Part shown: in pieces, positions 23,191 through 62,231 of the stretch | Position numbering within the stretch: position 1 is the stretch's first letter | How the letters are laid out: every line of letters starts with the position of its first letter | NCBI GenBank assembly: GCA_018907035.1 | Contig: JACCIC010000048.1 | Span: forward strand, 2,254,501-2,318,500 | Direction of reading: 5' to 3' | Length of the DNA stretch: 64,000 bases | Source of the DNA: Sycobia sp. Sy_11 | Lineage: Eukaryota > Arthropoda > Insecta > Hymenoptera > Epichrysomallidae | The notes under the pieces: generated by a model | Database searches by the model: none | What the model saw: only the letters and a program-made list of their open reading frames with translations | Told to the model about the DNA's origin: nothing | Position numbers and translations under genes: made by a program

Positions 23191-24473
23191 TCAGGTATGT
23201 GAATAAGTCTTTCCCGTTTTTTTTTCAAATTTTGAGCCTTTATTGTGAAAAAATGGTTACAAATGAATTATTGAAAGTATTGGCCATCGCTAGCTACAAC
23301 TTTCTCCCATCTTTCTGGCAACATACGAATCCCCTGCGAAAAAATTCGACCGGTTTGGCCTCTATCCAGTCATCCACCCATTTTTTGGCTTCCTCGTAGG
23401 AATGGAAGTGCTGGTCAGCCAGGCCATGCGTCATCGATCTGAAGAGATGGTAATCAGACGGAGCAACGTCTGGACTATACGGCGGGTGGAGTAGGACTTC
23501 CCATTTGAGCGTTTCTAAGTATGTTTTCACTGGCGGTGCAACATGTGGACGAGCATTGTCATGTTGCAAAATAACTTTGTCGTGCCTGTCGGAGTATTGT
23601 GGCCGTTTTTCTCGCAGTGCGCGGCTCAAACGCATCAATTGTCGTCGATAGACCTCGCCTGTGATCCTTTCATTCGGTTTCAGAAGCTCATAGTAAACCA
23701 CACCTAGCTGGTCCCACCATATACAGAGCATGAGCTTGGCGCCATGAATATTTGGCTTGGCCGTCGATGATGATGCATGGCCGGGTAGTCCCCATGATTT
23801 TCTTCGCTTCGGATTATCGTAACGTATCCACTTTTCATCGCCAGTCACGACATGATGCAGAAAATCCTTTCTTTTATGTCGCTGAAGCAGCTGTTCGCAA
23901 GTGAAAAAACGCCGTTCGACGTCTCTCAGCTTCAGTTCGTACGGCACCCAATTTCCTTGCTTTTGGATCATACCCATGGCTTTCAAACGCTTGGAAATGG
24001 TTTTTCGGTCAACTCCCAATGCTTCAGCAAGTTCTTCTTGCGTTTGACAAGAATCTTCATCAAGCAAAGTCGCCAATTCTCGATCTTCAAAGATTTGCGG
24101 CCGCCCGGAACGCTCCTTGTCTTCCACGTCGAAATCACCGCTTTTGAAGCGTCGAAACCATCCGCGAACACTTGAATCATCGACACAACCTTCTCCATAA
24201 GCCTCCTGAAGCAATGGATGCGTCTCGGCAGCAGATTTCTTCAAATTGAACCAATAAAGTGAAACTTCCCGCAAATGACGTCGACTCGGCTCTAATTTCG
24301 ACATTTTCACGATATCAAAAATTTATGATGCGAAAAAATTTTAACTAATGTGTTAGTATGGAATTGTTGACATATGAATAAGCTTTGATTATGACATATG
24401 TGACCATTGAATACTCGCACAGTATTGGTGGCGCCATCTCTTACAAAAAACGGGAAAGACTTATTCACACTCC
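23191..24473 (-). mobile_element. Nearly intact mariner (family B, copy 1), 1283 bp
   Basis: Both ends share the inverted terminal repeat containing GTGAATAAGTCTTTCCCGTT. TA dinucleotides flank it at 23189-23190 and 24474-24475, the expected target duplication. It has inserted into a Penelope-like element. The same family is found at 53918-54989. Apart from one small lesion near the transposase C-terminus, the element looks complete, so it is young relative to the other mariners here. Confidence 0.95.
23294..24304 (-). CDS. Mariner transposase, C-terminus frameshifted
   Basis: The ATG at 24304 starts MSKLEPSRRHLREVSLYW, and the frame runs 336 codons to 23294. Residues ~1-110 form the two helix-turn-helix DNA-binding parts (AAETHPLLQEAYGE, then TQEELAEALGVDRKTISKR). 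The catalytic D,D34D residues lie in VTGDEKWIRYD, ILQHDNARPHVA and HPPYSPDVAPSDYHLF. The protein cuts and joins element ends at TA sites in the nucleus. Compared with copy 2, one base is missing near 23335 (GCAGGGGATT against GCAACGGGATT), so the last ~22 residues are replaced by a short wrong tail. All catalytic residues remain, and residual activity is possible but unproven. Confidence 0.9.
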   Translation of the reverse strand: MSKLEPSRRHLREVSLYWFNLKKSAAETHPLLQEAYGEGCVDDSSVRGWFRRFKSGDFDVEDKERSGRPQIFEDRELATLLDEDSCQTQEELAEALGVDRKTISKRLKAMGMIQKQGNWVPYELKLRDVERRFFTCEQLLQRHKRKDFLHHVVTGDEKWIRYDNPKRRKSWGLPGHASSSTAKPNIHGAKLMLCIWWDQLGVVYYELLKPNERITGEVYRRQLMRLSRALREKRPQYSDRHDKVILQHDNARPHVAPPVKTYLETLKWEVLLHPPYSPDVAPSDYHLFRSMTHGLADQHFHSYEEAKKWVDDWIEAKPVEFFRRGFVCCQKDGRKL

Positions 24474-24516: not shown

Positions 24517-25631
24517 GCAGTCAACGAATTTATTAAAGCCATTAATTTAGTTTTTAATAACACAATTTTTTCGTTTGATAATAAATTTTATGAACAAAAA
24601 GAGGGATGTCCAATGGGGTCACCTTTATCACCGATTATAGCCAATTTACTTATGAAAAAATTAGAAAGCATTGCTTTGTCAAAATTAGTTTTGAACCAAT
24701 GATATTTAAGAGATACGTTGATGATATCTTTATAATTGGTCCAGAAGTTTTTCTGGATGAAATGGTGAATGTTTTTAATTCTGTAAAAAACAAAATTAAA
24801 TTTACAAGGAAGATTGAAGTCAATAATCAGTTGAGTTTTCTGGACATTAATGTCATTAGATGTAGTAATAATAAAGTGAAGCTTAATTGATATAGAAAAC
24901 CTACTTGGTCAGGTAGGATTTTAGATTGTAATTCACACCACCAATTCGGAAATAAAATTGGAACATTGAGGGGTGTCATTGACAGAGCAATAAAATTGTC
25001 ACATAAAGATTTTAGACAAAATAATTTACAGATAGTAAGAGAAACTTTCATTAATAATGGTTATCCAATTGAATTTATTAATAGATTAATTGCTGAGAGA
25101 TTGTTTGACAATGATAATACCGAAAATAGACATAATGCACGAGTTGATGTTAACAGAGACAAAATTATTGTCTTAGCATACGTTAGAGGATTGTCTTAAA
25201 GAATTAAAAGAAATTTTCGGAAATATAATATTCAAATTTTGTTTAAAAATAGCAATAATTTAAGTAAGTTGTTTAATAATTACAAAGATAAGGATGATCT
25301 ATGTTTAAAATCTGGAGTTTTTTACAAAATGAATTGTATGGTTTATAATAAATACTACATTGGACAAACTGGTAGATATTTAAAAAAGAGATTTTATGAA
25401 CATAAATATAGTTTACATAGTTCACATATTACTTCCGGTTTAAAGGAACATTGTTTAAATTTTTTACATTCCTTTGATTTTGTGAATGTGGATATTTTAG
25501 AGCATGGTATTAATCATAAGTATAAAAGGGAGAGTCTTGAAAGTATTCACATTTCCAAAAATCAAAATCATATGAATTTAATGTTAGAGTCTAGTAAATT
25601 AAATAACATTTATCATTCCTTATTAAATTGA
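24517..25631 (+). pseudogene. Penelope RT plus GIY-YIG endonuclease, broken
   Basis: The RT begins with FIKAINLVFNNTIFSFDN and QKEGCPMGSPLSPIIANLLM, the motif before the palm. A frameshift between about 24660 and 24695 leads to IFKRYVDDIFIIG with the catalytic YVDD. RT thumb text follows (FLDINVIR, then RKPTWSGRI), interrupted by TGA at 24888-24890 and TAA at 25197-25199. The C-terminal domain has CMVYNKYYIGQTGRYLKKR near 25333-25392: a VYxxxYIGQT form of GIY-YIG with the conserved Arg. In intact relatives the nuclease nicks target DNA to prime reverse transcription. The stops and shift make this copy inactive. Confidence 0.9.
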
Positions 25632-25737: not shown

Positions 25738-25787
25738 CTGATGAGGAGCCGTAGCGAGCTAGAAACGTTGGACTACTGCAACAAGTC
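25738..25787 (+). ncRNA. Hammerhead-ribozyme-like core in the Penelope tail
   Basis: CTGATGA at 25738-25744 and GAAAC at 25762-25766 are the two fixed hammerhead core strands at proper spacing. GTTG (25767-25770) can pair with CAAC (25779-25782), and GTC follows at 25785-25787. Hammerheads are known in Penelope terminal repeats. The copy is imperfect: the base before GAAA is A instead of the paired C, AA separates stem III from GTC, and stem I is not evident. It is probably a decayed motif. A shorter related stretch appears near 42379. Confidence 0.5.
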
Positions 25788-25862
25788 TTCAATTAGGTAA
25801 GGTTGGTGGGAACAGTCAGATTGCACTTTACTAGCATATTATTACTTATTATTGTTATTATT

Positions 25863-30790: not shown

Positions 30791-31590
30791 GCGGAACGAT
30801 ATAGGTTGAATTTTTGGCAAAATATTCATGTAAAATCAATGCTGTGTGAGCTGGTGCATTATCGTAATACAAAAACCAAGAGTTGTCTTTCCATAAATCT
30901 GGCCTTTTGAGACGAATAGCTTCACGCAAATGACGCATCATCCTTAAATAATATATTTTTTTAATCCTTTGGCCGGTTGGAAGGAATTCATAATGCACCA
31001 GACCACGATAATCAAAGAAAACAGTGAGCATAACCTTGATTTTTGAGGGACTTTGGCATGATTTTTTCAATCTTCGCTCTCCTTTGGCATGATATTCGCT
31101 CGATCGATCGATTATTTCTTGATCATAAACGTAGACTCAAGTCTCATCTCCAGTTATTATACGTTCCATCTTGTCCTGATAATCCAAAAACATCGTTTTA
31201 CAGACGTCTACGCGACGCTGTTTTTCCAAAAAATTGAGTTTTTGCACGAATCGAGATGAAACTCTTTGCCGGCACAAAAATGCATTCAAAATGATGTTGG
31301 CTGACCTATTTGAAATTCCAACAATATCAGCAAGCGCTCTAGTAGTCAATCGATGATTTCTTTGATTTTGTCGACGTGGAGCCGATCGGTAGATATTCTT
31401 GCTCGTCTATGATATGGTTCGTTTTGAACGCATTCTCGATCTTCTTTGAACAATTTGTGCCAATCAAAAACACTTGCTCTTAACATCGACTTCTGACCAA
31501 AGGCCTTCTGCAACATTCTGAACGATTCGGAGGCCGATATTTTATTTCGCGCAAAAAATTTAATGCTACTACTTTAACAAATGAAATAAT
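30791..31590 (-). pseudogene. Mariner-like transposase relic (family C, copy 2)
   Basis: Minus-strand frames read FFARNKISASESFRMLQKAF (about 31560), TTRALADIVGISNRSANIIL (31349 downward), MERIITGDET then a stop, KIKVMLTVFFDYRGLVHYEF, SWFLYYDNAPAHTALILHEY, and end at STYIVPQR where opposite-strand sequence starts. It parallels copy 1 at 18326-19345 but lacks the third catalytic Asp region and has several stops. Confidence 0.75.
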
Positions 31591-31831
31591 ATTTGGTGCT
31601 CTATTTTGTTTTGTGGAATTAAATTAAATAATTGAGATATAATTCTAAGAATATAATATATATTCGCTCTTGGGTGATTCCACAGATTAAGCGATGTACA
31701 ACATCGACAAATTTCTCTCATCGACGATTAAGTCACTCGAGAGTTGTTTTTCTTTCCTCGACATGTGCAAAATATAACTTGTAAGTTTTGAAGAATGAGT
31801 ATAAATCAGTCGCCGAAAATAAATACTATTT

Positions 31832-31900
31832 GTACGTTTCGCCCTCAGTTACCTGCTGGGCTCGTCAGTAGGACGACAGGTAACCAATTCCTAGACGTAC
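31832..31900 (-). ncRNA. Hammerhead ribozyme (type III arrangement)
   Basis: On the minus strand: GTACGTC, stem I (TAGGA...TCCTA), CTGACGA, stem II (GCCC...GGGC), GAAA, CGTAC. All fixed core positions fit: CUGANGA, GAAA, the A15.1-U16.1 and C15.2-G16.2 pairs, and C at 17. Cleavage is predicted after GTC, between plus-strand positions 31894 and 31893. Stem III (ACGTAC with GTACGT) is 6 bp, stem I 5 bp and stem II 4 bp. The stem I loop contains GTTACCTG and the stem II loop CAGGTAAC, exact complements, which would allow loop-loop contact. The host element is unknown. The open helix is III, so this is type III. Confidence 0.88.
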
Positions 31901-32059
31901 GATGCTTGCTCAAATCGATGACAACTTATAATATAAAGCCGATAATCTTATCTATGGGAGAAGAGTATTGTGTAAAAATGCGGGATTTCAAATTATTACT
32001 TGTACATATCTTAGAAAGTTAAATACCAACTTCATGCTTCTCTAGCTATCAATAACAAA

Positions 32060-32746
32060 TAAAATCGGACGGTAGAATATGATGTCCAGGTATAACGAGA
32101 CGATTTCTACGGGGAGTATCGTGTTTAGCTGCTAGAAAACAATGTTCAGGTATTTCAGGACAACTTCTACGAGAATTTTCGTGTTTGAATGATAGAATGA
32201 GATTTGCAGATGATTTGGAATGACTTCTACGGGGAATTTCGTGTATAGTTGGTAGGAAACAATGTCCAGGTATGTCAGTAAGACCCGTGCATAAATATAC
32301 TCGGTATATTCCTAGTTCGAGCTAGATCCTAGTCAGTATTACTGACGATTTCCTCATGTAGGTAATACTCGCCAGATCCGAGTTAGATTTCCCTACGATC
32401 ATCTAATAATCGTCATATATTACTTATTACTTTCTCGAATTTATTCAGATTTCCTTATCTTTTATTGATGTTAGAAAGAAATAAGTGTTTTCACTAGTCA
32501 ACATTTTACAAGTAGAAAACTTAAGTAAATTATCAGGCTTTCTATCTTGGATCTAGTCAGATTTCCTTAACTTCTCCCTATTTTGGAAAAAATGGCGTTT
32601 TTCTAGGCGGAATGTGCCAAGTAGGAGAATTCAGGAAATGGTTAGACTTTCTGTTTTGATTCAAGTTAGATTTCCTCAACTTTTTCTCATATTGGAAAGA
32701 ACGACGTCTTTTCTAACCAAGACCTTATGTGTACGAAAATTAGATA

Positions 32747-34721: not shown

Positions 34722-35609
34722 CTAGCATCCCCCATCTCCGCTTCGCCCGAGATAATAATTTAACCAATTTCATAAATAATTCAATAATTTCTAAGTAACA
34801 AGCACTCTATATATAAAATCTATGTTTCTATAAATAATTGACCGTAATTTACCTATCCTCGGAACTGTATAAAAAGCTGTTTCAATGTAGCCTCCACTTC
34901 AAAAAGTTGATATTTTGCCAACCATTTTTTAGAATATATATATATACGTATATTCAATACGGCTGCTATAGAGAGTTTTGTTTTGAGGAGGTAGAATACA
35001 ATGTCCAGGTATCTCAGGACGACTCTTCCTGGGAGTGTGCGTGTTCGAATGATAGAATACGAATCTCTTCATAGGAGTCGTACTGACATACTTGGACATC
35101 GTTTCCCACCAACTATACATGACACTCCCCGAAGAAGTCGTTCCAAATCATTTGGAAATCGCATTTTATCATCCGAACATGAAACTCCCCCTAGAAGTTG
35201 TCCCGACATACCTAAATATCATTTCCTACCAACTAAACACGATAGTCCCAGTAGAAGTCGGGCCGAGAAAGCTAGCATCCCTTTCTATTAACTAAACACA
35301 ATACTCCCCGTAGAAGTCGTTCAGAAAGACCTAGATATCGTAATTTACCGTCCCAACACGAATCTTCCCATAGAAGTTGATTTCCTCATACCTGGATCTC
35401 GTTTTCCATCAACTAAATACAATATTCCCCGTAGAAATCGCCCAGAGACACCTGAATATCGCATTCTATCATCCGAACACACAACTGCGTATAGAAAGCG
35501 TGTTGAGGCAACGGCATATCGTAATCAACCGCTCCTACACGTCAATACATTATTACTCAGTAGAAACCGTTTTTAAAATATGTATATATATGTACAATAT
35601 AATATACAT

Positions 35610-38118: not shown

Positions 38119-38913
38119 ATGTATATATATATATATTGTATGTATATTATATTGTACATGTTAAATATACATATTTTAAATACGGTTACTACTGAGTAAT
38201 ATTGTATTGGCGTGTACGGGCGGTTGATTACGATATTCCGTTGCCTCAAGATGAATTCTATACGCAGTTGTGTGTTCGGATGATAGAATGCGATGTCCAG
38301 GTGCTTCTGGACGATTTTTACGGGGAATATTGTATTTGGTTGATGGAAAACGAGATCCAGGTATGAGCAAATCAACTTCTATGTGAAGATTCGTGTTGGG
38401 ACGGTAAAATACGATATCTAGATCATTCCAAACGACTTCTACGGGTAGTATTGTGTTTAGTCGTTAGGAAGCGATGCTAGCTTTCACGGGACGACTTCTA
38501 CTGGAACTATCGTGTTTACTTGATCGTCAACTTCTACGGGGAGTTTCGTGTTCGGATGATAGAATGCGATTTCCAGATGATTTGGAACGACTTCTATGGG
38601 GAGTATCGTGTATAGTTAGTGAGAAACAATGCCCACGTATGTCAGTACAACTGCTATGAAGAGATTCGTAGTCTGTCTTTCGAACACGCACACTCCCAGT
38701 AAGAGTCGGCCTGAAATACATGGACATTGTATTCTACGTCCTCAAAACAAAACTTGTTATAGCAGTCGTCACCAGACATTTTGTATAGTCCGAACATGAT
38801 ACTCTCCGTAAACGTCATTTTATTTTCATTATATATTCTCGAGATACTTGGAAATCTTTTTCTACCGCTCGAACTCGAAAGAATAATTTTCTCCATCGAG
38901 GCCGTATTTAATA

Positions 38914-42061: not shown

Positions 42062-43775
42062 AAAAATTGTTATCAGCTTCTTATCACTGTCAATACTATT
42101 ATTAGCTATAGTGATTGCTTTAATCAGATGGGCAGCAAAGACTTTAATTTACATTACAATAGTTCTCATGACTGTTCTATTGGTTTTCTTTTATGGCCTA
42201 ATTTGTTATGGCATTCACAGAGACAGGCTAAGCGTTTATGCTCTCATACCCCTTAGTGTTGTTATTATTGTCTATGGAATAGAACTATATACCTTTAATA
42301 AGATGGGGGTCAAAGCTATGGGCAAAATAATTAGACAGTCCTGCAAGTAAGTATGTGTCTTTATATTGAATTATCATAACGTCGGACACCAAGGTGATTC
42401 TAAGTTTAAGGTGGTGGGGGCAGTCAGGTTGTCCTTTACTAACATAGTATATTGTTTTTATTATTTTTATTTTATTTTATTTATTATTTTATTATTATTT
42501 TTGTTTTTATGTTATTATTAATTTTATTTTATTCTTATTTTTAATTTTTAATATAATTTATTGTAATAATAAGTTTTATTTCAGATTCTACGGAGTGAAC
42601 ATAAACAAGAACAGTCTGACTGTCATTATTTTAGCTAATATATTATATTATAAAGACTGTAAGACCGATAAAAATATTTATTAATTTAATTCAGAACAGT
42701 CGACATAAGTACAATTTTTAATTCTAATTTTGAATTATCGTTGATTAATTCAAAATGTTGGGTGGACATCGTAATTTAGAATGGTTTACTTTAAAATGAT
42801 AAAGAAAATTTTAATTATATCTCTTTAAAATTCATATTTATAATATAAATAAAATATGAATTGAAAATAAAGTTGTTTATCTCAGTTTGAACAATATACG
42901 GATCAATGAAATTATATCTAAACTACAATTTCCATAATGCTTATTTCATTACATTAATTTGAAAGAACCAGCTGGTTTGTACAGAATTTAATATTCTTTG
43001 CCGATCCGTAATAAAAATAAAACAGATATTTCAAAACTATTAAGATTAAATAAAAAATATATCTGTAAGTTTAGCTCGAATATGAACTTAACTTCAACCT
43101 TAAATAGATGTAATAGTTCTTTACTGATAAAGCGATTAACAATTTCTTGTATAATCTTTGAAAATCATCTTGAAATAAACATAATTTACTAATGAAATAA
43201 ATAGTTACTTTATTTCAATCCTATTCAGTACTAATGTTTAACAACTGAAAATTTTCAGAGCATTGTTCTTTTTCCCATCAACGTTTTTCTTTATAACTCT
43301 GCAGTACATTTTACAGCTCGCAATTGCCAGCTACTCGGGCGCAGTGTACATGTTTCTGAATAGCATCAGATTATCAACGAACGAGACCTTCGAAGACTTC
43401 CTTGCCAGCAGTGAATTTCTGAACGCCAGTTCAAACGAAACTCTGAATAACTTGTATGATTACTACGAACTTACCGAGGATTTTCATAAAAGAACTCTGA
43501 CACCGTATTACGTTTATCTGCTGCACGTGATAAATATCGTTGGTTTCTTCTGGGCCTTCAATTTCGTCTCGGGCCTCGCTAGAATGGTATTGACCGCAAC
43601 CTTTGCCTCCTGGTATCACAGCAGTGAGAAACAACAGATTTCGCTGTGGACAATGCCGAAGTACTTTTTGAGAATATTGACGTAAGATGAAATTCAAAAT
43701 ATATATAGTCATTATCCGTTGATCGGTAGATTTCTTGCACACCGATGAAAATGAAGCTGCTTTGCCTGATATATC

Positions 43776-51561: not shown

Positions 51562-51745
51562 AAATATATCGTCGCTTCTGCATAAAAGGGCAATATCCAT
51601 CGTCTGCTTAAAAATAGGCTATTCGCATATCAATATTTTGCTTCAATCTCAGTTGGCATCACTACGAAAATATTCACGGTATTTAATTGAAAAAGCGAAA
51701 ATATACGAAATATGTATATATATGTATGTATGTGTATATAAATAC

Positions 51746-51777
<32 letters not shown>

Positions 51778-52740
51778 TTATATTGTACATATTATATATA
51801 CACATTTTAAATACGATTTCTACTGAGAAATATTGTATTCGCGTATACAGGCGGTTAATTACGACATTCCGTTGCCTCATGACGATTTCTATAGGCAGTT
51901 GTGTGTTCGGATGATAGAATGCGATGTCCAGGTGTCTCTGGGCGATTTCTACGGGAAATATTGTATTTAATTGATAGAAAACGATATCCAGGTATGAGGA
52001 AATCAACTTTTATGGTAAGATTCGTGTTGGAACAGTAAAATACGATATCTAGGTTTTTCCGAACAACTTCTACTGAGACTATCGTGCTTCATTGGTAGGA
52101 AACGATGTTTAGGTGTATCGAGACAATTTCTACGGGGAGTTTCGTATTCAGATGATAGAATGCGATTTGCAGGTGTTTTGGAACGAGTTCTACGGGAAAT
52201 TTCATGTTCGGACGGTAGAAGATGATATCCGGGTATGATGGGACGACTTCTATGGGGAGATTCATATTGGGACGTTCGAATTCGATGTCGGGATGTTTTG
52301 GAATGACTTCTATGAGAAGTGTTTAAGAGACTTCTATAAAGAGATTCATTTGCTATCATTCGAAAACCCACACAAAAGTTATCCCGGGATACCTGGACGT
52401 CGTATTCTACCTCCCCAAAAGAAAATTTTATAACAGTCGTCCCGAGACATGTCCTATATTCCGAACATGATACTCTCTATAAACGTCGTCTCGAGGCACT
52501 TACACATCTTTTTCTACCGCTCGAACTCGAAAGTACAGTTTTCCCCATTGAAACCGTATGTAATATGCATATATGTGAGTATTAAACGCTGTTGTACATT
52601 CTGCATATACATACTGTATTTACAGAAGCGACGATAGGTAAATTTCGATCAATTATTTATAGTAATATAGATTTTTATATATAGAGTACTTTTTACTTGT
52701 AAAAAGTATTTTAAAATGTATTTATAAATCGGTCGAAATG
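51125..52740 (+). mobile_element. Helitron-type element (copy H5), both ends truncated
   Basis: It carries the same segments as H2 in the opposite orientation: the GATTCGTATCCTAAAGAAGG block (51145), a CT-rich stretch (51282-51340), spacers with CAGTTGGCATCACTACGAAA (51650), the minisatellite (51840-52440) and the pre-terminal AATTATTTATAGTAATATAG (52650). The 5' T-rich end and the 3' hairpin/CTAG are missing. A (TA)n at about 51519-51558 lies inside. Confidence 0.7.
51840..52440. repeat. 60-bp minisatellite inside Helitron H5
   Basis: Unit starts (CGATNTCC-like) are visible at 51922, 51982, 52043, 52103, 52163, 52223 and 52283, a 60-base period with one extra base. The minus strand is open from 52371 to 52003 and reads as ~20-residue Ser/Arg/Pro-rich repeats. 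Confidence 0.9.
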
Positions 52741-53917: not shown

Positions 53918-54989
53918 GGAGTGTGAATAAGTCTTTCCCGTTTTTGTAAGAGATGGCGCCACCAATACTGTGCGAGTATTCAATGGTTACATATGTCATA
54001 ATCAAAGCTTATTCATATGTCAACAATTCCATACTAACATATTAGTTAAAATTTTTTCGCATCATAAATTTTTGATATCGTGAAAATGTCGAAATTTGAG
54101 CCGAGTCGACGTCATTTGCGGGAAGTTTCACTTTATTGGTTCAATTTGAAGAAATCTGCTGCCGAGACGCATCGATTGCTTTAGGAAGCTTATGGAGAAG
54201 GTTGCGTCGATGATTCAAGTGTTCGCGGATGGTTTCGACGCTTCAAAAGCGCTGATTTCGACGTGGAAGACAAGGTGCGTTCCGGGCGGCCGCAAATCTT
54301 TGAAGATCGAGAATTGGCGACTTTGCTTGATGAAGATTCTTGTCAAACGCAAGAAGAACTTGCTGAAGCATTGGGAGTTGACCGAACAACCATTTCCAAG
54401 CGTTTGAAAGCCATGGGAATGATCCAAAAGCAAGGAAATTGGGTGCCGTACGAACTGAAGCTGAGAGACGTCGAACGGCGTTTTTTCACTTGCGAACAGC
54501 TGCTTCAGCGACATAAAAGAAAGGGTTTTCTGCATCGTATCGTGACTGGCGATGAAAAGTGGATACGTTACGATAATCCGAAGCGAAGAAAATCATGGGG
54601 ACTACCCGGCCATGCATCATCATCGACGGCCAAGCCAAATATTCATGGCGCCAAGCTCATGCTCTGTATATGGTGGGACCAGCTAGGTGTGGTTTACTAT
54701 GAGCTTCTGAAACCGAATGAAAGGATCACAGGCGAGGTTTATCGACGACAGCATGGCCTGGCTGACCAGCACTTCCATTCCTACGAGGAAGCCAAAAAAT
54801 GGGTGGATGACTGGATAGAGGCCAAACCGGTCGAATTTTTTCGCAACGGGATTCGTATGTTGCCAGAAAGATGGGAAAAAGTTGTAGCTAGCGATGGCCA
54901 ATACTTTCAATAATTCATTTGTAACCATTTTTTCACAATAAAGGCTCAAAATTTGAAAAAAAACGGGAAAGACTTATTCACATACCTGA
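53918..54989 (+). mobile_element. Mariner family B, copy 2, with internal deletion
   Basis: The terminal repeats are shared with 23191-24473 (GTGAATAAGTCTTTCCCGTT near both ends). TA flanks at 53916-53917 and 54990-54991 mark the insertion. At 1072 bp it is ~210 bases shorter than copy 1. The deletion removes the segment with the second and third catalytic Asp residues, with the junction near 54750 between GEVYRRQ and HGLADQH. A TAG at 54182-54184 also truncates the product early. Unlike copy 1, it keeps the normal C-terminus (EKVVASDGQYFQ). Confidence 0.95.
54086..54913 (+). pseudogene. Mariner family B transposase, deleted core
   Basis: It starts MSKFEPSRRHLREVSLYW at 54086, has a TAG at 54182, then stays open to TAA at 54911-54913. 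The DNA-binding region (TQEELAEALGVDRTTISKR) and first catalytic Asp (VTGDEKWIRYD) are present, the other two are deleted. It cannot catalyse transposition. The terminal repeats may still be substrates for a helper. Confidence 0.9.
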
Positions 54990-55676: not shown

Positions 55677-56679
55677 TCTAAGTCGATAGATTAGAAATAA
55701 TTCACAAATTTATATTAAAAAATCGAAGTTTATCTGTTTGCTTTATAGTATAAGAAAATTTTTACTTACAATAAAAGAAAAAACCTAGTACTTGAACAAA
55801 ATGAAAATTTCAACTTAGTGTTGGAAATTCAAAAAAAAATAGTTCTATCGCAAAGAAAACAATAAATTCGATTTTAAAAAATGATTTAAACTAACACAAT
55901 GAGCTAAATAACTTAAAATTATTATTGAATTTTTATATTTATTTTTCTGTCTTAAATGATTTAAATTTTATCTTTAGTCGAATGGGAGCGATATAATTTT
56001 GTGCTCTTTTTTATATTCATGATAAGCATTTTATGGGAATAAACATAAATTACTGGCTTCTTAATATACACGTAATAATTATATTTAGTAGATTTTACAT
56101 TGAACTAGAAATTTGTTGATAAATTTTCGGCCAATATAAAATATTTAATATGTAATTACTTGTTCAACTACAGCATTCTAATATTAGTAAAACTTGGACA
56201 TCTACGTCATTGTAGTGCAATTTCAAGTTTATGGTAGTACAATACTAATATATAAGAACCTATAACTTGAATGCATTTACTGCATACTTTTATCATAATA
56301 TTGTAAGGAGCAGCAGGTAATATTGAATAAAACTCTTACGTACAAGAAAGTATAAAACTGTAAAAATAATTCAAGAAATTGAATTATTTTTTGTAACATG
56401 ACACATAACTCATTTTTTTACATATAACTAATATTGTTTTTATATTATACTAGCCCTAATCGTTAATCATTAGTATTTATTTTCAATTGAATTTGCAAGG
56501 GTTTTCTTGTAATTTAAAAGAAATTTAAGAAAGAAACACAGTTCAAATTTGAAAGTACAAGTAAGCTCTTGCATCTTGTGAATTTATTTTTCTGAATAAA
56601 ACTTATATATTGCATTATGGCAAAAATCTTTTCCCATTTATTTCTTTATGTATCTAAATATCATTTAGATACACCATAC
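54992..56679. other. Microsatellites and AT-rich DNA, no gene seen
   Basis: (TA)n tracts occur at about 55163-55191, 55208-55243 and 55620-55674. A purine-rich, GC-richer stretch spans 55250-55560. The remainder to the gag fragment is AT-rich without motifs. Confidence 0.5.
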
Positions 56680-56684
56680 ATGGT

Positions 56685-57659
56685 GAAGCTTTAAATTTGA
56701 TTGTTGCAAATAATCCCGCAACATGGGACGAATGCAAAAGAATTTTAATAAATAGATACAGTGATCCTAGTTCGGAGGAGTTATTATTTAATAAACTGAC
56801 GACGTGCTATCAATTATCTAATCAACATTTTGATAAATACGCTGACGAAATAAAACTACGTCTAAATAAATTAAAAGAACATATTCAATTGAATGTTCAA
56901 GATGCTAATTTAAGGCAAATGAAATTTGAATTTTATGAAAATATTGCGCGAAATACTTTTATTAATGGCATAAAGGAGCCATATCATTCGCACTTAACAA
57001 ACTTCGATCTCGACGATATCGAAGCTTGTTTAATCAAATGTAGGAAGCTTGATAATCATAAACAACAAGCTGAATTTCTCGATTTTCAGAGAATCAGAGA
57101 AAATAAACCTAAACTTAGTAACTTTAATAATAGTAGGAATACAAATCAATTTAATACATCCCTAAATTCGAGAAATACTAACTCACTTAGTGCACCTACA
57201 AATGCAAGGACTTTTAATCCATTTAATAAGCCCGAAAATAGGAATGCCTTCTCAACCCCGCAAGTGCAACCTAATTTTAGACTCGCAAACATTGGAAACA
57301 CCTTTGGAAATAATTTTAAACAAAATTTCAATAATACTAGACAACAAAATTATCAACCGACTCCAATGTCGATAAGTACCTGAAATACGAGCCGGCCAAA
57401 CAATAATTTTGGTCGAAATATCAATTCAGCGACATCGAATAATATACGATCAAGAGGCAGTAACTTCTTCAAAAGCACAGGCCCACCGGATTTTCTTTCG
57501 GAAGAATTACATAACCAAGAAGACATACCAGAAGAGAAAATTTATACGGAAGAACTCCCAAACGAAGAGCAAATGCAGGATGAAACAGCTTGTCTCGAAG
57601 AGCAAAATTTAACCTATGAAAATTTTCAAGAAGAAGACAAATTCCTAAACAGGAGGTAG
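56685..57659 (+). pseudogene. Errantivirus-like gag, partial
   Basis: The frame enters mid-protein (GEALNLIVANNPATWDECKR), in the conserved helical capsid region of Ty3/Gypsy gag (LLFNKLTTCYQL follows). An Asn-rich region leads to a TGA at 57381-57383, after which the same frame stays open to TAG at 57657-57659 with an acidic tail. No zinc knuckle is seen, as is common in errantiviral gag. The N-terminal part is absent. Confidence 0.8.
57620..57626 (+). promoter_or_regulatory. Candidate -1 frameshift heptamer between gag and pol
   Basis: A AAT TTT fits the X XXY YYZ slippery pattern in the gag frame. The -1 frame has a stop just upstream (57617-57619) and is open from here into protease, while the gag frame ends at 57659, so the shift must occur in this 40-base overlap. 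I did not identify a downstream pseudoknot. Confidence 0.5.
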
Positions 57660-60600
57660 TAAATTTGAATAATATTGGAAATTGCCCCCAATTACCTCAC
57701 ATAATAACAACAAATCCACCGTTAAAAATTCTCATAGATTCTGGAGCTTCGTCTTCAATTATTAACCCAAAAATAGCCTATAAATTATTTTCCAAATATA
57801 TCTTTCCGCATAATTTTGAAGTTAAATCAGTGCATAAGGTAATACAAGGTACAACCGCACATTCCCAATTTTACGCGAATTCGGAGATAATACAGCAATC
57901 ACCTTTTTAATAACATCATGGCACTCTACGTATGACTGCTTAATTGGACATAAAGATTTGCGAAAATTGCAAGCAAATATAAATTATAAAACTCAGATGT
58001 TCAGTACAGCAAAGTTTGAAATAAATTATTTACATAACTTACCAGAAAAATGTAAAAAGACGACTCTAAATCATCATCAAGAAATAAAAATGCAAATAAG
58101 GACTGATCATATGAATAATGAAGAAAAGGAAAAAATTATCAGACTATGCTACAGGTATAAAGACTGCTTCTACAGCGAAAACGATAAGCTATCTGCAAGC
58201 ACAGCAGTGACTCACACTGTTTTAGATATCCGTATCATTTAAAGGAAGCTATACAGGAGGAAATAAGAAAGTTATTAAACGACGAAATAATACGGCCAAG
58301 TAATTCACCGTACGCCTCGCCCGTTTGGATTGTTCCCAAAAAACAAGATGCAAGTGGGAAAAAGAAGTGGAGGATGGTGATAGATTATCGAAAACTCAAC
58401 GATAAAACCATTGAGGACAAGTACCCTCTACCTAGAATGGATGAAATTTTAGAAAATTTAGGCAAATGTACATATTTCTCTACATTAGATTTGGCACAAG
58501 GTTTCCATCAAATACCGCTTGATAATAATTCAATAGAGAAAACAGCCTTTACCGTTGAAAACGAACATTACGAATAGTTCGTATGCCGTTCGGTTTAAAA
58601 AACGCCCCTGCAACTTTTCAAAGAATGATGAATAAAGTTTTAAGGAAATATTTACACAAATTTTGTTTCGTTTATATGGACGACATTGTCGTTTTTTCTA
58701 AATGTCTCCAAGAACATCTACAACATTTAAAACTGATTTTCGACGAATTAAAAAATTACGAACTAAAAATTCAACTTCATTTTTAGGCCACATCATAACA
58801 CGTGAAAGAATTAAACCGAACCCTGAAAAAATTAAATCTATAATCAAATACCCTATCCCAAGAACGCAAAAAGAAGTAAAATCATTCTTAGGACTTACCG
58901 GTTATTACCGAAAATTTATTAAAGATTATGCAAAAATTTCAAAACCACTCACCAGAGTCCTTAAAAAGGATGAGAAAATTAATTGTGAAAATCAAGAGTA
59001 TGTAGAATCATTTAACAAATTAAAAGAATTAATTGCAAACACTCCCGTATTGGAATATCCGGATTTTTCTAAACAATTCGTGATTACCTCAGATGTAGGC
59101 ATCGGAGCCGAGCTGTCGCAAGACAAATACCTTATTTCATGTTACTCTAGAACACTGAATTCAGCAGAGCAAAATTATTCTACGATTGAGAAAGAATTAC
59201 TCGCAATCGTAGAAGCATGTCGATACTTTAGACCATATGTTTATGGAACAAAATTTATTATTGAAACAGATCATAAACCACTAACCTGGCTCTGTTCCCT
59301 AAAAACACCAAATGCGAGATTAATTCGATGAAAAATAAAACTGGAGGAATACGATTTCGAAATAAAATACAAAAAAGGCAAGGAGAATAATGTAGCTGAC
59401 GCATTAAGCAGAATTGAACTAAACACCCAAGAGGACAATGAGGATTCACTTTCAATGATACCAGAAGCACCTGATATTGCACTTCGCTCGATCGAAGAGC
59501 TCGATGACGAAGTTGTAACAGTGCATACTGCAGACGAAGATCCGGTCTTTTCACTACCGATAAGCGAGAGAAATATTCACGCTTTCAATTACAGTATAAT
59601 ATTGAAGCATGTTAAAGACTATGACATAAAAGAAATTAAAGATAAAGTTAAAGTACAATTTGTATTATAGTAAAAATTAATCAAAATGACGCAGAAGCGC
59701 AATTACTAAAATTTCTAAACGAAAACCCGACAAACAATACGGAATTTATTTTGAAAATAAGGAATTAGAAATCGTTATTTATAGGATATTAAAGGAACAT
59801 TTTAATGAAAGGCTGAAATTTGTAAAAACAAATGTTTATACACCTTCAATAAGTCAAAATAATTTTATGAAGGAACTCAAAGAATACCATGACAAAAATC
59901 ACAATGGAATACAAGAAACAACAGCACATTTTAAGAAGAAATTTTATATACTAAATATGGAGAGAATTATTCAGAATTATATTAATCAATGCGAAGTATA
60001 TTTAGAACACAAATATGAGAGAAAACCCTATAAGACTGAAAATTACGGCCCCATTATTGCTAACAGACCACTTTAACATATACATATAGATATTTTTCAC
60101 GTAAATAAAGAAAAATTTCTAACTATAATTGACATCTTTTCGAAATACGCTCAAGCTTATCTTTTATCCGATGGATTCATAAGATAAATTCATAAGATCG
60201 AATATCACCAAACGACCGTTAACCGACACACATCAAATGGTCCAATCGAAAGGCTACATTCTACTCTGAGAGAGAAATTAGGCATTTTGGTGATTCAGAA
60301 TCCCAACGAAATTATTAAAAATCATATGACCTCGGCTATACTTATATATAATCAAAGCATTCACTCTTGCACAAAATTCGCACCGTTTACACTTCTATAT
60401 GGACCGTATGACGAATTACATAAACATATTATTGAGCCTGAAGCAGACGTAATTGAAAAATACAATGAGATTCGAAAAAACGAAATTCTACCTTTTTATG
60501 ACAAGATATATAATAAACAGAAAAGGCAACAAAAGTTACCTGACGAATCAAATCAGGCGCTCGAAAGTAAGGAAATTTATATTAAAACACATCAACAGCA

Positions 60601-60799
60601 ACGCGATAAAAACGCGCCTCGCTATCAAAAATTGCTTGTAGAAAAACAAAAAGGCCCTTCACTAGAATGTTATATACACGGACAACCACGCCGCTATGAC
60701 CTGCGGAGTGCTAAAAGATTAAGAAAACCCTCCTTTGTTTTACAGAAGGATGAAGACGACACTCTTGATAATTATCGCCACGACTCTTGTAACAAGTGA
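57627..60799 (+). pseudogene. Errantivirus-like pol, broken
   Basis: Protease shows ILIDSGASSSII near 57730-57765, then TAA at 57908-57910. RT shows VIDYRKLNDKT and FSTLDLAQGFHQIPL, a break near 58575, [16 protein letters not shown] and the catalytic YMDD near 58673-58684. A shift near 58785 leads to the connection and RNase H, where the DAS-like site reads TSDVGIGAEL, probably after a small deletion. ETDHKPLTW is intact, and a TGA lies at 59329-59331. Integrase keeps part of the zinc finger with one Cys lost (CEVYLEHK) and the first core Asp ([11 protein letters not shown]). The second Asp region is deleted near 60180, and [11 protein letters not shown] remains. Dead by several independent lesions. 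Confidence 0.85.
60738..60749 (+). promoter_or_regulatory. Likely splice acceptor for env mRNA
   Basis: TTTGTTTTACAG/AAGG sits just before the env ATG at 60750: a pyrimidine-rich run, AG, then the start codon within 6 bases. Errantiviral env is known to be made from a spliced subgenomic RNA. The donor would lie in the missing 5' part. Confidence 0.55.
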
Positions 60800-62231
60800 T
60801 GAAATCGACGCCAATAAAACACACTATGCTGACCAGCAAGGAACAGGAAGAATTATTGCAAATTATCATGATCTACACTTTGGGATAAATTTAACAACGT
60901 TAACGCAAACCTATAAAGAAATCTTAACTAGTTATTCAATATTAGCTTCTCGATCAGAACTTCAGGAATGCAACTTGTTAAAACAAGCCTCGATATTATG
61001 TAAAGAAATACAACAAGATATACAACAAATAACACCACAAAGCGAAAGAATGAAGAAAGGTCTCTTTGATGGGTTAGGTACAGCAGTCAAATATATTTTC
61101 GGGAACCCAGACGCTACAGACCTGGAGAGAATAAATAACTATTTAAATTTACTTGATCATCAACAACAGGAAGATATCATTACATTAAATAAATCAATAA
61201 GCATAGTGAACAAGATAAGCAAAGAGATCAATAGCAATACTGATGTTATTAATAGAAATTTATTAAACATGATAGGGACGCTGAAAAATGAAAATACAAA
61301 AATTAATAATTTCGAAATCATCGTTACCCTCATAATACAGGAACAACATTTTCTTCGATTGTTAAGTAAAATTAAAAGATCGTTCATTTTTTCGGAAAAA
61401 TTATTCGATTTAGAAATATTACAATATAAACAAATATTATATATTCAGAAACATCTGTTTAAAGTTTACTCTCAAAAAGAGCTTATGTTAGATTACTGGA
61501 ATTTATTAGACCTTCTGTTTGCTCGGGAAACAATCGCATTTACCCATGACTCTATCATCTACACACTCAAAATTCCGATCCTTAATCCTATCGAATTCTC
61601 CCTCATAAGGCTCGCAATCATCAATCATATTAATCAAACGGAAATAATTAACGTGCCTTGGATTTTAGTTGGACAGCTTTTTAAGTTATTTTCTCAAACA
61701 TGTCAAGAAATGTATAAAAGAACATATGTATGTTACCAAATTGATACAGAGAACGCCAAGCCGATTGTGATTCCAATAATTTCGCCTTTAATATTTACAT
61801 ATGAACTATCAGATGGTATACTTGTCTCTAGCAATTTTCCAATCAAAATCAGAGTTGATGACACCGAAAGCACGATCAAAGGAACACATAAGATACGAGG
61901 AAGAGATATCCCAATCCAAGATTATAAGCCCCATGAAATATTTGGAGAAATTCAACAGTCAAATTTAATTTTACCGGTAATAATTAAAGATCATGAATTA
62001 AGTTTTGAACCATTAAAGGAGTTAAATTCGCCGACAATAATTGCGCCTGTACATAAAACATTTGGAAGTGAGTTTCATATGCCGGTACCAGCGATTACGC
62101 TTGTTTCGCTCGCCTTATTAATGCTTATGTTATACTTGGCATATAAACACACAACAAATACAAGAAAGCAGCATTCTCCGCCTATCAACGACGAGGACGT
62201 CTTTGAACTTCGCCAGGGAGGACTTATATGA
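60750..62231 (+). CDS. Errantivirus-like envelope glycoprotein (baculovirus F-like), intact frame
   Basis: The first ATG gives 493 residues. Residues 1-~20 form a signal peptide ([13 protein letters not shown]). Around residues 95-100, RMKK precedes [15 protein letters not shown], the position of the protease cleavage site and fusion peptide of baculovirus F-type proteins, although the last basic residue is K rather than the usual R. Hydrophobic [17 protein letters not shown] near residues 447-463 is the membrane anchor, with ~28 cytoplasmic residues. Sequons NKT and NLT lie near the N-terminus. In live relatives it drives membrane fusion. It overlaps the end of pol by 50 bases. No stop or shift interrupts it. 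I call it only from motif order. Function is unproven. Confidence 0.85.

Follow-up and report, generated by a model that had tools for sequence, protein, structure and literature searches.

A type III hammerhead ribozyme in the Sycobia sp. Sy_11 genome and its carrier, a retrozyme-like element with Penelope-type insertion footprints

Known systems and the present locus

Animal non-LTR retrozymes are small AT-rich units that lack long frames, carry one hammerhead, occur also in tandem and show target duplications above 4 bp (PMC7229834, available text). Penelope-like elements (PLEs) were proposed there as the retrozyme helper, a 'strong candidate' on circumstantial grounds. We analyzed a window of 64,000 nucleotides from Sycobia sp. 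Sy_11 (contig JACCIC010000048.1) and found a hammerhead whose carrier resembles these retrozymes. It is multi-copy, low in GC, small, capable of tandem arrangement and without long frames, and its duplications likewise exceed 4 bp. Unlike the animal non-LTR retrozymes, which have type I hammerheads and units of about 170-400 nt, it has a type III hammerhead and a unit of about 478 nt. Its head-to-head, two-site footprint is not described in the available text of PMC7229834. Because the type I hammerhead is missing, we call the element a variant of that class and not a plain member.

The insertion footprint is closer to that of PLEs such as PAc of Anolis (PMC11167929) and the Penelope of Adineta (PMC3846280, in its available part). 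As in these PLEs, the inserts are head-to-head with a tail at one end, there are two adjacent start sites, the targets are AT-rich and the duplications are of about 8-10 bp or similar. A PLE protein extends the two strands of the target, and two adjacent starts internal to the RNA delimit the 'tail' (PMC11167929). In Adineta the tail lies on one inverted end and head-to-head is the commonest arrangement (PMC3846280, available part). A per-insert count of one tailed and one tailless end is stated neither in PMC11167929 nor in the available part of PMC3846280. PLEs differ from our element in encoding their own protein and in carrying minimal type I hammerheads, whereas the retrozyme has no recognisable protein and a type III hammerhead.

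Pseudoknotted type III hammerheads are described from termite and toad HDV-like RNAs, dipteran genomes, D. pseudoobscura and SatCYDV-RPV (PMC7936874, available text). According to the same text, the termite genomic copies are isolated motifs, for which its available part describes no carrier; the motifs were found in dipterans and not in hymenopterans. Type III hammerheads in insects are therefore rare but not unprecedented, which corrects one premise of the earlier sequence-only reading of this locus, where type III in an insect was taken as an unusual placement. Like the described cases, ours is a type III hammerhead in an insect with Watson-Crick pairing of loops 1 and 2. In those cases the contact is of 4 nt and involves an internal loop within a long helix I, whereas here 8 bp (12 with wobbles) form between terminal loops. 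The long helix I with internal loop, the extra hairpin and the 6-bp helix II of the termite and toad type are all absent. We therefore take our hammerhead to work like that type and to be a different sub-type, because its stems I and II have 4 bp and its loops are terminal. Dipteran examples are announced as in preparation in PMC7936874, and PMC7761336 mentions insects with type III hammerheads as work in preparation (both in their available parts), so other reports may exist beyond the open-licence PMC papers.

Plant LTR retrozymes also have type III hammerheads (PMC4918200, available text). Compared with them, the element in the window lacks fixed-end LTRs and its duplications are longer than 4 bp.

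The carrier was left unidentified by the sequence-only reading. Its assignment as a retrozyme-like, non-LTR element of about 478 nt with PLE-type insertion footprints is supported by the evidence below. We consider it likely that this carrier is a non-autonomous non-LTR retrozyme whose RNA circles are inserted by a PLE protein that primes both strands at two neighbouring sites, A and B (Table 1).

Table 1. Coordinates of the features (window positions unless a locus is named)
Feature	Position	Strand	Basis or remark
Type III hammerhead ribozyme, open stem III	31832..31900	-	RF00008 match and base-by-base reading
Predicted cleavage site, between 31894 and 31893, after C17 of GUC	31893..31894	-	Position within the hammerhead core
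Loop 1, 17 nt, octamer GTTACCTG at 31877-31884	31873..31889	-	
Loop 2, 13 nt, octamer CAGGTAAC at 31848-31855, complementary to the loop 1 octamer	31845..31857	-	
Retrozyme unit, window copy, u1-u491	31575..32065	-	Homology limits; one putative ~478-nt circle plus ~13 nt overlap
Site A, outer-end cluster u434-449 in other copies, putative reverse-transcription start	31617..31632	-	
Site B, outer-end cluster u478-491, putative second start; the window copy ends here	31575..31588	-	
Broken PLE copy (putative), RT/GIY-YIG part, stops at 24888-24890 and 25197-25199	24594..25631	+	Related to the candidate helper
Minimal type I hammerhead-like motif of the PLE	25738..25790	+	By eye; same motif in PLE loci
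Sister family elements	L064:97-356	-	
	L068:196-800	+	
	L069:165-771	+	
Loci with one A end and one B end	L001, L005, L007, L009, L011, L012, L016, L017, L021, L026, L027, L033, L057		
Two-armed loci with an end elsewhere	L003, L004, L010, L014, L015, L018, L019, L022, L024, L025, L028, L045		

The hammerhead and its loop pairing

The hammerhead on the minus strand at 31832-31900 is confirmed. The sequence-only reading had called it a textbook type III ribozyme, and the type III topology is borne out both by the match to RF00008 (Hammerhead_3) and by base-by-base reading. The fixed core positions that it named (CUGACGA, GAAA, and GUC) are present on direct reading, with CUGACGA at 31862-31868, GAA at 31838-31840 and C17 at 31894. 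The motif thus has the CUGANGA and GAAA elements, an NUH triplet and three stems with stem III open. Stem III is GUACGU/ACGUAC (6 bp with U16.1-A15.1 counted), stem I is UAGG/CCUA (4 bp) and stem II is GCCC/GGGC (4 bp). The labels U16.1, A15.1, and C17 follow the hammerhead position numbering. The three stems of the earlier reading therefore stand, with one pair fewer than its lengths of 6, 5, and 4 bp. The word textbook does not suit the short stem I, the large loops (17 and 13 nt) or the competing minimum-free-energy fold.

A covariance-model search had been proposed as a check. The RF00008 match is significant, with 36.7 bits and E = 1.7e-6 in the 361 nt searched, and it stays below the curated gathering score of 48.5 bits, which nothing in the whole window reaches. 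Chance is unlikely at this E value despite the sub-gathering score, and the long loops cost bits and lower the score. The octamers of loops 1 and 2 (GTTACCTG / CAGGTAAC) are exactly complementary, as had been claimed, and give 8 Watson-Crick bp. With wobbles the pairing extends to 12 bp, which 9 of 20000 loop shuffles match.

The predicted folding energies count against the main reading. In the minimum-free-energy fold (-24.8 kcal/mol), the two loops pair and stems I and II are absent, whereas the three hammerhead stems without loop pairing reach -11.3 kcal/mol. The loop 1-loop 2 duplex contributes -14.6 kcal/mol, and the fold containing it lies 13.5 kcal/mol below the three bare stems. These values would suit an off switch, in which the loop 1-loop 2 helix blocks stems I and II and shields the circle from cutting. 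A similar role has reportedly been seen in a plant satellite RNA. Loop contacts usually help hammerheads and normally aid cleavage, which argues against a blocking role, and the helix could serve as contact and switch alike if it forms as a pseudoknot, a structure that the folding program cannot score. We hold the off switch to be a tentative, rather unlikely proposal, and it is compatible with the main reading of a PLE-inserted retrozyme.

Genomic copies, insert architecture and the Penelope-like elements

We searched the 621-Mb assembly of 472 contigs. Further copies had been named as a check, and the 62-nt ribozyme pattern with at most 3 mismatches occurs at 102 places (12 exact; 0 for the reversed control). 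A similarity search yielded at least 41 matches; 40 of its 395 candidates were scored. The RF00008 search of the genome gave no match among the 68 scored of 83076 candidates and recovered 0 of 14 controls; it is uninformative because it misses copies found by the DNA searches. Compensatory changes, another proposed check, are found in part. In the copy at C244:204954 the loop pairing is preserved by a compensating change (GTTACTTG/CAAGTAAC), and some further copies carry changes without compensation, as would be expected of decaying copies.

The limits of the carrier unit, AT-rich and about 478 nt long, come from homology around the copies. We number the unit (u) along the minus strand of the window copy, where the predicted cleavage follows u172. 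This copy has a GC content of 32.8%, and its longest stop-to-stop frame is of 76 aa (100 aa, antisense, in the tandem locus L028). Copies are circularly permuted relative to one another. The tandem copies that the sequence-only reading had asked after are present in L028, which holds head-to-tail units 475 nt apart, one head-to-head junction and further units. Four hammerheads were found by cmscan in L028, each on the sense strand of its own unit and none opposite. The unit RNA of the window copy, folded as a linear molecule, is no more stable than shuffles (z = -0.51 sense and -1.45 antisense), and a viroid-like rod was rejected on these scores. A 25-nt core had no exact match in IMG/VR contigs, a collection that holds few RNA agents, and an exact-match scan of prokaryote genome contigs also gave none.

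The neighbourhood of the window copy contains several other features. A tandem 60-bp repeat that keeps its frame (20-residue periods) lies at 32073-32278 and 52128-52312, with related frames near 34995-35576, 38176-38463, and 51683-52009. The array at 32073-32278 is 8 nt away from the far end of the retrozyme, and resembling repeats are found near the copies in L006 and L025. Mariner (Mos1-type) transposase frames are at 23294-24322 (-), open over 342 aa, and at 54185-54913 (+), with matches in mixed arthropods. Pieces of a Gypsy-type LTR retroelement occupy 56658-62231 (+); among them are one frame for RT/RNase H and one that is env-like ('Gypsy protein', PF07253). An exon-like frame at 43242-43685 (+) resembles a choline-transporter-like protein (PF04515).

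Insert architecture was examined in 58 loci, 21 of which repeat a place, leaving 37 distinct; L099-L101 bring the number of places read to 40 of the 102 listed. All loci were picked by an intact ribozyme, so truncated ribozyme-less copies are absent from the sample. By script with a fixed gap rule, the arm pattern was '-+' (head-to-head) in 21 of the 37 loci, '-' in 7 and '+' in 5, with '+-+', '-+++', '++', and '--+' at one locus each and no simple '+-'. Arms of at least 500 nt, above one unit, are present in 13 of 37 loci. Since most copies are not tandem, the long arms suggest that reverse transcription went round an RNA circle. Two observations count against the main reading: the window copy is one-armed, with neither an opposite arm nor a clear target duplication in the flanks tested, and L010 ('+-+') has a tail-to-tail junction.

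Duplications were sought in 45 nt outside and 15 nt inside each end, leaving out L010, L023, and L055. A stretch of at least 11 nt is common to the two flanks in 19 of 34 loci versus 26 of 1122 mismatched pairings; some of the shared stretches do not abut the insert ends. A narrower test gave at least 8 nt in 14 of 32 loci versus 5.7%. Clear duplications are seen in L006, L012, and L016. The flanks are 78% AT, compared with 64.7% for the window.

The outer ends of the arms, assigned by eye from printed coordinates, cluster at sites A and B, which are about 45 nt apart. Opposed arms occur in 25 loci, including L021, whose minus arm of 25 nt was missed by the script. Both outer ends fall at A or B in 13 of these loci, and every one of the 13 has one A end and one B end (12 of 12 without L021). 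The other 12 have at least one end outside A and B, several at u460-469, and counting the end of L018 at 454 as A would make this locus an A/A exception. This one-tail rule was noticed after the fact in the retrozyme. Three loci fetched as a fresh test (L099-L101) are one-armed and so uninformative on the rule.

The PLE pairs read in the same genome follow this rule. We regard the frames in the window as probable PLE remnants; their identity rests on motifs read by eye and on homologues of an intact relative, which carry RVT_1 and in some cases also GIY-YIG (best 120 of 374). Those with a named organism among the same best 120 of 374 are from insects, including ants, at 31-40% identity. The three PLE frames of the window match no Pfam family at E 0.001, and the type I hammerhead motif in L066 and L067 gave no Rfam match at E <= 0.5. 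The genome search for PLEs yielded at least 150 scored matches from 8963 candidates, with some open frames of 821 aa. The locus L067 is a PLE array with a period of 3026 bp, in which minus copies are followed by plus copies (head-to-head).

PLE ends lie at two places about 42 nt apart. After the rule had been noted, we fetched nine chosen adjacent minus/plus pairs, a selection from those listed, and the missing end of the L067 array. All 10 head-to-head pairs (among L080-L098) have one tailless end and one end with a tail of about 42 nt, with L092 classed by the absent tail anchor and L097 by alignment, its tail ending 7 nt early. L066 likewise has one tailed and one tailless end. In 10 of 10 PLE pairs the flanks have at least 13 nt in common, partly of low complexity; among mismatched pairings, 11 of 90 reach 9 nt.

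A LINE-type enzyme might instead move the retrozyme, with the head-to-head copies arising as twin-priming inversions on linear read-through RNA. LINE twin priming also gives head-to-head inversions and target duplications of about 10-15 bp, features that it would explain here as well. In twin priming, the fixed RNA 3' end is marked by only one outer end, whereas the ends of both retrozyme arms cluster, and at two sites. No poly(A) or A-rich tail was seen at the retrozyme ends, arms exceed one unit in 13 of 37 loci, and the PLEs of the same genome leave the same scar in all 10 pairs. We find movement by a LINE improbable.

Movement of the retrozyme by way of a PLE, as proposed from the footprints, is well supported. 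In this model, the transcript would cut itself at the type III hammerhead into units of about 478 nt, which a host ligation activity would close into circles. A PLE-encoded reverse transcriptase with a GIY-YIG endonuclease, acting in trans, would take up an RNA circle and cut the two strands of an AT-rich target at positions about 10-13 bp apart. One cDNA would then be primed from each target strand at the neighbouring RNA sites A and B, and the two cDNAs, possibly longer than one lap of the circle, would be joined at a variable point. The outcome would be a head-to-head insert that has a tail at one end and none at the other. The weakest link of the model is the recognition of the retrozyme by the PLE, since no convincing similarity between the two was found at the start sites in the one PLE family compared. 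Recognition may be structural, or the actual helper may belong to a different PLE family.

A second type III family and its meaning

A second type III hammerhead element interrupts the PLE locus L064 (RF00008, 29.1 bits, E 0.011). Its 67-nt ribozyme pattern with at most 3 mismatches is found at 75 genomic places (reversed control 0). In L068 and L069, ribozyme-bearing repeats of 259-260 nt enclose 86-87 nt of internal sequence (repeat-internal-repeat arrangement); the L064 copy is a solo repeat. A PBS-like TGGTGACACCCC lies one base past the first repeat and a purine-rich stretch precedes the second, as judged by eye; the available part of PMC4918200 reports no PBS or PPT in metazoan repeats. 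Among 13 loci examined, 11 had both boundaries; exact 4-bp duplications are present in 8 of these 11, and the other 3 match at three of four bases.

This sister family looks like the plant LTR retrozyme plan by its sequence features: the repeat-internal-repeat order, the ribozyme, the 4-bp duplications and the solo repeats agree with PMC4918200 (available text). Within the open-licence PMC papers searched, LTR retrozymes are described only from plants. The small LTR element PbTRIM of the harvester ant also has 4-bp duplications (PMC3532108), and the available part of that paper mentions no ribozyme. Compared by description, we set PbTRIM aside on LTR length alone (152-184 bp versus 259-260 nt).

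The loops of the sister family also pair over 12 bp, with different letters, which none of 20000 shuffles reaches. The loop pairing is thus kept in a second type III family of the same genome, and 7 bp are left when the loops are crossed between the two families. If the two ribozymes are of common descent, this is covariation; otherwise it is convergence on the same contact.

The sister family bears on the proposal that the first element is an inert repeat, whose hammerhead would be a relic without self-cleavage and with no part in the spread. The RF00008 score under gathering and the loop-loop hairpin as the minimum-free-energy fold would agree with a relic, and a PLE hammerhead proved dispensable for insertion in vitro (PMC11167929). 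Against this, the core is intact in 12 exact dispersed copies, permutation and multi-unit arms call for circles of the kind that hammerheads make elsewhere (PMC7229834, available text), and the same design recurs, with other loop letters, in a second family unrelated to the first. We judge a relic to be quite improbable. Genomic copies of an infectious viroid-like or HDV-like circular RNA, reverse-transcribed by chance, are highly improbable: the unit size and circularity would fit, as would the pseudoknotted type III hammerheads that HDV-like RNAs of termites and toads carry (PMC7936874, available text), but L028 has ribozymes in a single polarity per unit and not in both, the window copy has neither a stable rod-like fold nor a long frame, the exact-match scan of IMG/VR contigs, which include few RNA agents, gave no match for a 25-nt core, and the copies form a multi-copy family with regular insertion footprints.

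Taking the two families together, we lean, with a little over even confidence, toward a broader reading. One insect genome would hold two unrelated RNA-circle mobile elements, a PLE-inserted non-LTR retrozyme and a plant-type LTR retrozyme, each with a type III hammerhead whose kissing loops pair over 12 bp. The retrozyme and the PLE would obey the same one-tail rule, by which a complete head-to-head insert shows both start sites, one per target strand. The rule would imply that a PLE complex of two subunits primes the two strands, using neighbouring sites of one and the same RNA circle.

The scars of the retrozyme match those of the PLEs in the same genome feature by feature, and the enzyme that moves animal retrozymes thereby becomes a directly testable question. 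One tailed and one tailless end would be a simple readout of a PLE complex priming both target strands. The case also runs counter to the rule of thumb by which type I hammerheads go with animal retrozymes and type III with plant retrozymes, and the sister family suggests that animals, too, have LTR retrozymes.
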